From a virus: DNA of 40,993 nucleotides. The stretch covers positions 1 to 40,993 of the IMG/VR virus record IMGVR_UViG_3300005582_000027, one strand, 5' to 3'. The stretch's first letter is position 1, and every line of letters begins with the position of its first letter. Shown here piece by piece: positions 21,976-40,993 of this stretch. Under the pieces are notes generated by a model. It made no database searches. It worked only from the letters and a program-made list of their open reading frames with translations, and was not told where the DNA came from. The translations under genes were made by a program, and so were the position numbers.

Positions 21976-22052
21976 GGGCCCGTAGTTCAGTTGGTCAGAA
22001 CGAGCCGCTCATAACGGTTATGTCGCAGGTTCGAGTCCTGCCGGGCCTACCA
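21976..22052 (+). tRNA. tRNA with CAT anticodon (elongator Met or Ile2)
   Basis: A 77-nt cloverleaf with encoded CCA. The acceptor stem GGGCCCG pairs with CGGGCCT (G1-U72 wobble), the anticodon stem AGCCG/CGGTT encloses CTCATAA, and the T arm GCAGG/CCTGC is perfect. CAT (22010-22012) reads AUG, or AUA if C34 is modified to lysidine; sequence alone does not decide. Confidence 0.93.
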
Positions 22053-25617: not shown

Positions 25618-25692
25618 GCCGGGTTAGCACAGTGGTAGTGCAGTGGTTTTGTAAACCACAGGTCGGGGGTTCGAATCCCTCACCCGGCACCA
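25618..25692 (+). tRNA. tRNA-Thr (TGT)
   Basis: A 75-nt cloverleaf: acceptor GCCGGGT/ACCCGGC, anticodon stem GTGGT/ACCAC around TTTGTAA (anticodon TGT), T arm GGGGG-type paired with CCCTC-type strand, A73 and encoded CCA. It reads ACA (and by wobble other ACN) codons. Confidence 0.94.
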
Positions 25693-34644: not shown

Positions 34645-34721
34645 GTACCCGTAGCTCAGCCGAATAGAGCAACTGCCTTCTAAGCAGTAGGTCGCTGGTT
34701 TGAGTCCAGCCGGGTACGCCA
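34645..34721 (+). tRNA. tRNA-Arg (TCT)
   Basis: A 77-nt cloverleaf: acceptor GTACCCG/CGGGTAC, anticodon stem ACTGC/GCAGT around CTTCTAA (TCT), T arm GCTGG/CCAGC, G73 and encoded CCA. It reads AGA/AGG. The CCA is directly followed by the left arm of cassette C9. Confidence 0.95.
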
Positions 34722-38895: not shown

Positions 38896-39675
38896 ATGTA
38901 CACTAATTCACTTCAATACGCCGATTCTAGTGCCACATATCTTACACGACGGGAAAAGAAGTTACAGAAAAGAATAAAAAAGACACAATACAACGTCGAG
39001 GCTAGAAATCAGCTTGCTAAAGTGACATTGAAGCGAATAGTACCCATCACAGATAATCAATCGCGAACATTCGAATCATTCGCAAACGATAGAAACATTC
39101 TTCTACATGGTTCGGCAGGAACAGGCAAGACATTTCTTGCTTTGTATTTGGCCTTAAATTCAGTCATCATGGGAACATCACCAAAACCAATCGTAATTCT
39201 TCGAAGTGTCGTACCCTCTCGCGACATGGGGTTTCTACCCGGTAATGTCGAGGAGAAGATTGCGGTATATGAAGCTCCGTATGATGGGCTATGCAGTGAG
39301 CTAACAGGCCATGCTACGGCATACGATTATTTCAAGAAAAATCATTATATTGAATTCAGCACCACATCGTTTCTTCGAGGCATTACGTTTCGCGACAATA
39401 TAATTATCATCGATGAAGCCCAGAATTGTAGCGGGCATGAATTGAATACCATCATGACCAGAATTGGTGAAGGCTGCCGCGTAATCATATGTGCAGACTT
39501 CACGCAGACCGATCTGATCAAGTCAGAGGACAAGCTGGGCTTTCGGAAGTTCATGCAAATTATCAAGGCCATGAATAGCTTTGATCATATTGAATTCACT
39601 CACGACGATATCGTCCGAAGTGCATTAGTGAAAGACTATATTATTACTAAAGACAGGATGAACATAGATTTATGA
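38896..39675 (+). CDS. phoH: PhoH-like ATPase
   Basis: A 259-residue P-loop ATPase. HGSAGTGKTFLALYLAL is Walker A and IIIIDEAQNCSGHELNTIM Walker B with the following helix; RSVVPSRDMGFLPG and IICADFTQTDL are conserved PhoH elements. PhoH proteins are related to helicase domains and are frequent in T4-like phages, with a likely RNA/DNA-remodelling role. AGGAG precedes the ATG. It overlaps the exonuclease gene by ATGA. Confidence 0.95.
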   Translation: MYTNSLQYADSSATYLTRREKKLQKRIKKTQYNVEARNQLAKVTLKRIVPITDNQSRTFESFANDRNILLHGSAGTGKTFLALYLALNSVIMGTSPKPIVILRSVVPSRDMGFLPGNVEEKIAVYEAPYDGLCSELTGHATAYDYFKKNHYIEFSTTSFLRGITFRDNIIIIDEAQNCSGHELNTIMTRIGEGCRVIICADFTQTDLIKSEDKLGFRKFMQIIKAMNSFDHIEFTHDDIVRSALVKDYIITKDRMNIDL

Positions 39676-40328
39676 AATTTACACATGAGATTATATCATT
39701 TGAGGAACTGACAGCAACTTCTACACCCTCGGGAAGACTATATGAAACTCCCCGAGGATCATATCCCTCTATTACGACGATACTTGGTAAGCAGCCCGAC
39801 AAACAGAAGGGTCTACAAAAGTGGCGTGATCGTATTGGTCATGAGAAGGCTGATCGAATTGCCAATACCGCAGCACGCCGCGGCACGAACATTCATGAAC
39901 ATTTGGAATTGTATCTCATGACTGAGAAGATGCCGCTCAATGAAATGCCAACTACCATGGCTATGTTCTCGCAGATGAAACAGGTTATAGACAAGAATCT
40001 GGAAATCATCAATGCATCTGAAGCTCCCATGTATTCCGATACTCTTCGTGTTGCTGGGCGATGCGATCTAATTGGTATATGGAAAGGCGAACGCGCCATC
40101 ATAGACTTCAAGACTTCTTCTCGCGAGAAGCAGCGTAAATATATCACGGATTATTTTTTACAATGCACGGCCTATAGCATGATGTTCGAAGAGAGAACAC
40201 AACTGCCCTGTAAAAATATTGTCGTCATCATTGGATGCGATGAAACGCCAATGGCTCAAGTATTTGAAGCCAAACGCGATGACTATGTTGATGATGTCAA
40301 ACGAATTATAAACGACTATCATGCATAA
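39672..40328 (+). CDS. PD-(D/E)XK exonuclease (MGME1/Cas4-like)
   Basis: A 218-residue nuclease. GTNIHEHLELYL provides the early His/Glu, VAGRCDLIGIWKGERAIIDFKTS the Asp...Asp-x-Lys core, and YFLQCTAYSMMFEE the QxxxY motif. This layout matches single-strand exonucleases common in T4-like cyanophages. It is probably involved in recombination or replication with PhoH. Followed by the tmRNA promoter. Confidence 0.9.
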   Translation: MKFTHEIISFEELTATSTPSGRLYETPRGSYPSITTILGKQPDKQKGLQKWRDRIGHEKADRIANTAARRGTNIHEHLELYLMTEKMPLNEMPTTMAMFSQMKQVIDKNLEIINASEAPMYSDTLRVAGRCDLIGIWKGERAIIDFKTSSREKQRKYITDYFLQCTAYSMMFEERTQLPCKNIVVIIGCDETPMAQVFEAKRDDYVDDVKRIINDYHA

Positions 40329-40333
40329 AAAGC

Positions 40334-40362
40334 TTGCTAATGAATGTCAATTAGTCTATACT
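40334..40362 (+). promoter_or_regulatory. Sigma70-type promoter of the tmRNA gene
   Basis: TTGCTA (40334-40339), 17-bp spacer, TATACT (40357-40362). The 12-mer ATACTAAATAAA here (40358-40369) also occurs at 38623-38634 upstream of another gene. Confidence 0.6.
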
Positions 40363-40374
40363 AAATAAAGATAT

Positions 40375-40615
40375 TCGATGAAGCTATTCATAGGTATTCA
40401 GGACTCGGGGGCAGTACCCGACACTTCCACCAATGGGAGTGAAATAGGATCGACTGGTGCTAAAAGGTAGTGGAGAATCGGCAACGCGGAAGCCGGATAG
40501 TTAAAGAAGCACTCGTAAGAGCCAACGATAATGTCTCATTTGAGGAATATCGCCTAGCGGCGTAATCTCATTGGGTTTCGGCCGGTTTCCTAGAAACAGA
40601 ATAACCGTCCACCCC
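40375..40615 (+). ncRNA. ssrA: Circularly permuted (two-piece type) tmRNA
   Basis: tmRNA rescues stalled ribosomes and tags proteins for proteolysis. The acceptor piece comes first: T arm TCGGG/CCCGA around GGCAGTA, then CACTTCC-A-CCA ending at 40432. Two bases later (40435-40441) GGGAGTG begins the coding piece and pairs with CACTTCC over 7 bp, including a G3-U70 wobble, the alanine identity element. The tag frame GCC (40521) to TAA (40565) encodes ANDNVSFEEYRLAA, an alphaproteobacterial-type tag with the LAA degron. The outer ends are approximate. Confidence 0.92.
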
Positions 40616-40637: not shown

Positions 40638-40993
40638 ATGCGAATTATCATAGTATGCGTAATTGCGTTAATTGTGGTATTGTTTACTGTCACCAGCGCG
40701 TATGCACAGACACAAGTTGGTCACGCCAATCTAAGGCGCGGCACCGATCTTCATAAGATCATTGTCGAGCAATCTCAAAACCATAATGTTTCAGTCGATC
40801 TGGCCCTCGCAGTAATAGCTCAGGAATCAGCCGGAAGATGTTCTGTCACATCATATTCTGGTGCTATCGGGCTTATGCAAATCAAATACGCTACGGCCAG
40901 AGATATCGGCTATCGAGGGTCGCCTCATGGGCTATATGATTGTCGAACCAATATACAATATGGCATGAAATATTTAGCTATGGCGTCGGAAAA
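40638..40993 (+). CDS. Secreted lytic transglycosylase (SLT family), partial
   Basis: The first 118 residues of a gene running off the window. AAGGA is 9 nt before ATG 40638. The N-terminus MRIIIVCVIALIVVLFTVTSAYA is a signal peptide. VDLALAVIAQESAGR holds the catalytic Glu (ES motif), followed by SGAIGLMQI (GLMQI motif) and NIQYGMKYLA, the standard order in Slt-type enzymes that cleave peptidoglycan. It could act in lysis or release; a signal peptide makes a virion role less likely. Confidence 0.9.
   Translation, partial: MRIIIVCVIALIVVLFTVTSAYAQTQVGHANLRRGTDLHKIIVEQSQNHNVSVDLALAVIAQESAGRCSVTSYSGAIGLMQIKYATARDIGYRGSPHGLYDCRTNIQYGMKYLAMASE

Follow-up and report, generated by a model that had tools for sequence, protein, structure and literature searches.

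How would RNase P and a 3′-end enzyme process an acceptor stem that is closed by a loop of six nucleotides? The question is raised by a tmRNA locus near the end of the window, the whole stretch of DNA analysed here, which is a linear 40,993-base IMG/VR metagenomic fragment (positions are those of the window, and all features given lie on its + strand).

Identity of the locus and its phage context

The initial annotation had read the locus as a phage-encoded permuted tmRNA and had proposed a covariance search with the alphaproteobacterial model. That search upheld the reading: RF04321 matched 40370–40565 (95.7 bits, E 1.7e-17, model positions 1–213 of 213, cut-off 47) and RF01849 matched 40330–40611 (86.4 bits, E 3.4e-22, model positions 1–355 of 355, cut-off 50). 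Both Rfam matches span the full model length above the cut-off, and their E values exclude a chance match; as the two models contain no pseudoknots, the scores speak only to the remaining structure. ARAGORN likewise called a permuted tmRNA, with the tag ANDNVSFEEYRLAA, and 40370–40611 is identified by these tools as a circularly permuted (two-piece) tmRNA of alphaproteobacterial type. The permuted order is present, CCA preceding the coding piece: the sequence reads GACACTTCCACCA, in which CCA occupies 40430–40432, AT 40433–40434 and GGGAGTG 40435–40441, so that the acceptor piece ends at 40432 and the coding piece starts at 40435, as had been annotated. The acceptor piece (40370–40432; ARAGORN and Rfam) comprises the T arm, the 3′ half of the acceptor stem and the encoded CCA, and its 5′ end, placed at the start of the RF04321 match, is approximate, as is the 3′ end of the coding piece (40435–40611), placed at the end of the RF01849 match.

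An assembly error that deleted a longer intervening segment (ITS) can be conceived of, the window being a metagenomic fragment, but its probability is negligible. A pattern scan of viral contigs, which found 92 stretches, returned the AT segment together with an identical tag in four other viral contigs from other metagenomes (L016, L022, L060 and L068), which argues that the segment is not an assembly error, and the same ITS occurs in unrelated phage and bacterial genes. Their identity to the window across the aligned stretch is 94–99%, with L060, whose downstream gene has diverged, as the exception; L016 is almost the same as the window, and L022, L060 and L068 are further diverged. No isolate phage gave a DNA-similarity match to the window tmRNA. 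In a tmRNA tree the clade of the window was well supported (98/99) and its relation to other phages was without good support, and the split between phages and bacteria was weak (59/100) and biased, the bacterial set having been chosen for short ITSs. Judged by its sequence, the gene is real and intact-looking, and ordinary in kind.

Genes for ribonucleotide reductase, primase, PhoH and a PDDEXK exonuclease, together with best protein matches to Melnitz, DLP_6, HTVC008M and cyanomyoviruses, indicate that the window virus is most likely a T4-like phage, and it is of freshwater type. Melnitz shows that a phage with an alpha-type tmRNA does not necessarily infect an alphaproteobacterium (PMC9004378). 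No SmpB gene was found in the 40,993-base fragment. The locus is flanked by genes for a PDDEXK/Cas4-like exonuclease (39672–40328; phrog_298, 2e-65) and, from its protein match, a lytic transglycosylase-like protein (40638–40993) that runs off the window. A weak promoter-like site, TTGCTA-17-TATACT (40334–40362; 9 of 12 matches, where chance alone would give about four sites of this quality in the region), has a predicted start at about 40369–40370, where the acceptor piece begins; all four siblings keep its hexamers and the 17-nt spacing, and the spacer sequence varies. The transglycosylase gene of L060 seems to be without its middle, the sequence from about 1580 onward jumping from the start of the gene to the equivalent of about 40961 in the window. 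ARAGORN also placed three tRNA genes in the window, for Met(CAT) at 21976–22052, Thr(TGT) at 25618–25692 and Arg(TCT) at 34645–34721.

Acceptor stem, helices and tag

The 5′ strand (GGGAGUG, 40435–40441) and the 3′ strand (CACUUCC, 40422–40428) of the acceptor stem are paired at 7 of 7 positions, the third pair being the wobble G40437–U40426 (G3–U70), and the 3′ strand is followed by the discriminator A73 and CCA (40429–40432). A G-U at the third pair is a determinant recognised by AlaRS. The 7-bp stem with a G-U third pair described previously is thus confirmed, and G3–U70 is consistent with the alanine identity predicted from it. Across the 41 distinct tRNA-like ends that were compared, pair 3 was always G-U; U70 was fixed by the search pattern and G3 was free, albeit within a required 7/7 stem. 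Pair 4 is A-U in the window versus G-C in most phage genes, both sides having changed. The T arm (40405–40421; Rfam and sibling comparison) consists of a 5-bp stem and a 7-nt loop (UCGGG GGCAGUA CCCGA). As a separate observation, phage tmRNAs with an unusual T arm of 16 rather than 17 nt (e.g. GCGGCTTCGAAGCCGC) were seen in L004, L018, L023, L026, L045, L066, L070, L073, L077 and L085.

The acceptor-piece strand of P2a (GUAUUCA with one bulged U, 40394–40400) pairs completely with UGGUGC at 40455–40460 in the RF01849 alignment, and these pairs are invariant in the siblings. P2b (CUAUUC, 40384–40389, with partner 40465–40470) has weak support and keeps 5–6 pairs in the siblings by means of one-sided U-G/U-A changes, which are the sole informative signal there, as no two-sided changes were found within the siblings. 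RNA folding alone did not recover the known P2 helices, and variation among the siblings was too small to bear on a pseudoknot upstream of the tag.

The tag reading frame (40521–40565; ARAGORN and Rfam), ANDNVSFEEYRLAA with its stop TAA, begins at the resume codon and ends in a hydrophobic AA tail before the stop; the same tag is encoded in the four siblings, with one synonymous codon change in L060. The proposal that this is a new tag, which would give stalled proteins a different fate or evade a host adaptor, draws on the residues after ANDN, which are Val-Ser-Phe in the window and Phe-Ala in most phage tags. However, the window tag keeps the ANDN start and LAA end; in its 14 residues and its terminal Tyr-Arg-Leu-Ala-Ala it matches other phage tags, which have a like frame (ANDNFADEGYRLAA, ANDNFAIEDYRLAA and ANDNFAPVDYALAA), and middle residues vary widely across phage and bacterial tags. 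The proposal is accordingly without support and we regard it as very improbable; as far as its residues can tell, the tag falls within the variation usual for phage tags. A literature search on phage tag function found nothing.

Length of the intervening segment

The two-nucleotide segment had been flagged as unexpectedly short, and it is indeed rare, yet it is not singular, since it represents the short extreme of a continuum of ITS lengths (2, 3, 4, 5, 6 ... about 60 nt) found in phages and bacteria. Among 385 alphaproteobacterial genomes, only about a quarter of which were recovered by the pattern used, 52 pattern-matched genes had an ITS of up to 30 nt, one of them with 2 nt, and about 45 had an ITS of 31–61 nt, a few of these perhaps by chance; the 2-nt form thus accounts for 1 of about 97 pattern-matched genes. 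A scan of all genome contigs for an ITS of 0–6 nt matched 107 contigs, of which 56 with a 7/7 stem were kept and the remainder, with 5 or fewer stem pairs, were dropped. Within this full-stem set the ITS was 2 nt in six contigs (L119, L136, L148, L160, L176 and L193), 3 nt in six, 4 nt in six, 5 nt in 12 and 6 nt in 26. A second, looser viral scan gave more cases of 3–5 nt as well as L247, a phage gene that differs in sequence and has the ITS AT (RF04321, 102.7 bits), which is a second phage lineage with a 2-nt ITS. Apparent 3-nt segments in L003 and L059 were rejected as chance matches because the acceptor stem is absent. An ITS of 0 or 1 nt with an intact stem was found in neither of the two viral scans nor in the genome scan, all of which permitted them, and the ITS of the window is the shortest length met in these scans. 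In the tree the bacterial 2-nt genes fall on several branches, apart from the clade of the window (L247 lies outside the tree), so that shortening of the ITS probably occurred more than once, with weak support for the deep tree.

Two further observations were made during the scans. A Xanthobacteraceae MAG, JOPF139, holds a contig with a 4-nt ITS (L098) and one with a 2-nt ITS (L176), representing two copies or a strain mixture. Many phage permuted tmRNAs with an ITS of 5–8 nt, e.g. L006, L011, L028 and L055, were found by pattern and missed by ARAGORN; L055 was accepted by Rfam.

The bacterial genes also bear on whether the precursor is opened at all. If it stayed uncut at the ITS, it would remain a closed hairpin that could not be charged, and the locus would be a decoy or a decayed gene. 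The loop is just 6 nt, and a phage tmRNA lacking the CDS (DS6A) has been reported to inhibit the endogenous tmRNA (PMC11915505). Such a role is nevertheless unlikely for the window gene, in which the tag frame, stop, CCA and G3–U70 are intact and conserved in the siblings, the change in the tag codons being synonymous. Moreover, a 2-nt ITS is also found in bacterial genes, and in 5 of 5 searched bacterial genomes with such a gene it was the single RF04321 match and hence probably the working copy.

RNase P, processing and known systems

The intervening AT (40433–40434) would, from the sequence, its siblings and the ITS comparison, be the leader, A(-2)U(-1), that RNase P removes from the coding piece. 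Related bacterial genes have ITS endings in common (at in L119 and tat in L155; at in L148 and ttat in L098; ac in L136 and tctac in L165), and the short segments look trimmed from the CCA side. A terminal AU was present in 24 of 46 (52%) distinct ITSs of at least 6 nt, against a frequency of AU of 4–17% at other steps, and among distinct ITSs no longer than 5 nt it was present in 14 of 23; the sample is non-independent, as ITSs are related by descent, which inflates the count. For E. coli RNase P the optimal N(-2)N(-1) is AU, and a two-nucleotide leader is still cleaved with a 5.2-fold lower kcat/Km (PMC9433436). From the AU excess and this published optimum we infer that the ITS shrank to a minimal RNase P leader, RNase P holding the leader side of the segment and the CCA side being free to erode.

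A more far-reaching version, which we advance tentatively, is that in permuted tmRNA genes of phages and bacteria the ITS repeatedly contracts until precisely two bases, most often AU, are left, since a 2-nt leader is required by RNase P even where a 6-nt loop ties that leader to CCA. If true, genes with a 2-nt ITS would be natural minimal substrates for the opening of a closed acceptor loop by RNase P. Of the observations made, the recurrent limit of two nucleotides to which the scans point most deserves to be followed up. It is also possible, though we think it doubtful, that in a real tmRNA the 2-nt ITS is neutral, reached by random drift in length with an AU that is ancestral beside G1 and no floor set by RNase P. 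Both the length continuum among the about 97 matched alphaproteobacterial genes and the letters that related ITSs have in common by descent are what drift would produce, but whatever the ITS length, AU recurs beside G1, and does so in phage and bacterial genes whose ITSs are otherwise different, and the scans gave no ITS of 0 or 1 nt.

Pairing between the leader and RCCA slows RNase P. In a single-strand fold of the window RNA an extra A73–U(-1) pair extends the stem to 8 bp with a CCAA loop, which could have this effect. In addition, RCCA and the 5′ leader occupy different sites in RNase P complexes (PMC9433436), so a 2-nt tether between A76 and position -1 may block normal docking, and a prior cut may be needed before RNase P can dock.

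Taken as a whole, the locus is in our judgement quite probably a functional-looking phage copy of alphaproteobacterial permuted ssrA. A single transcript would fold such that the acceptor stem closes the 6-nt loop ACCA-AU, and host tRNA-processing enzymes would open this loop, RNase P cleaving 5′ of G1 (40435) and the CCA end being freed by an endonuclease or by a 2-nt exonucleolytic trim. The two pieces would remain base-paired and be charged on CCA by AlaRS via G3–U70; with host SmpB the molecule would then rescue stalled ribosomes during infection, presumably to the benefit of the phage, and add ANDNVSFEEYRLAA for degradation. The ITS would have been worn away from the CCA side to the dinucleotide favoured by RNase P at -2/-1.

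Permuted tmRNAs of phages are already published, and the window adds another phage lineage. A survey of 402 phage genomes with a tmRNA counted 53 two-piece forms, most of them aquatic (PMC9004378). Permuted genes have been collected in a database with 11,946 of them (PMC11915505), and the main text of the paper on it does not state the shortest ITS; a 2-nt case may already be recorded in older papers on two-piece tmRNA. With the alphaproteobacterial permuted tmRNA (RF01849/RF04321) the window gene shares the order acceptor piece–ITS–coding piece, the CCA, G3–U70, the T arm, the P2 pairing, an ANDN...LAA tag and a similar 3′ region, and it differs in the 2-nt ITS, in A-U for the usual G-C at acceptor pair 4 and in a shortened P2b. 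Melnitz (PMC9004378) and the Pelagibacter phage HTVC008M likewise carry an alpha-type permuted tmRNA in a T4-like phage, and in Melnitz, as in the window, PhoH, a PDDEXK nuclease and the tmRNA follow one another in this order, interspersed with small genes; however, their ITSs are about 140 nt (Melnitz) and about 50 nt (HTVC008M) versus 2 nt in the window, and their tags differ. A glutamine riboswitch lies downstream of the tmRNA in Melnitz, whereas Rfam found none in the window. In Melnitz this RF01739 match (L206:1886–1934) is downstream rather than upstream of the tmRNA, so the riboswitch may control the next gene and not the tmRNA. Within the roughly 140-nt ITS of Melnitz (MZ577097, L206; record about 46,060–46,240) there is also an ATG frame (MFKWLSKTRLVVITRDYF...) that follows a GGAG, is about 50 codons long, runs into the coding piece and is unannotated in MZ577097.

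The phage gene L247 and the tmRNA of a Candidatus Odyssella MAG (L119) share the AT ITS and an intact 7-bp stem with the window and differ in stem and T-arm sequences and in branch. The question of processing also bears on permuted tRNAs with a 1-nt spacer: in the permuted tRNA-Tyr of Thermofilum pendens, removal of the 1-nt ITS is an acknowledged open question (PMC3978253). That tRNA has in common with the window gene an extremely short ITS in the acceptor loop and an encoded CCA, but it is an archaeal tRNA whose halves are ligated, whereas the pieces of the window tmRNA would remain separate.
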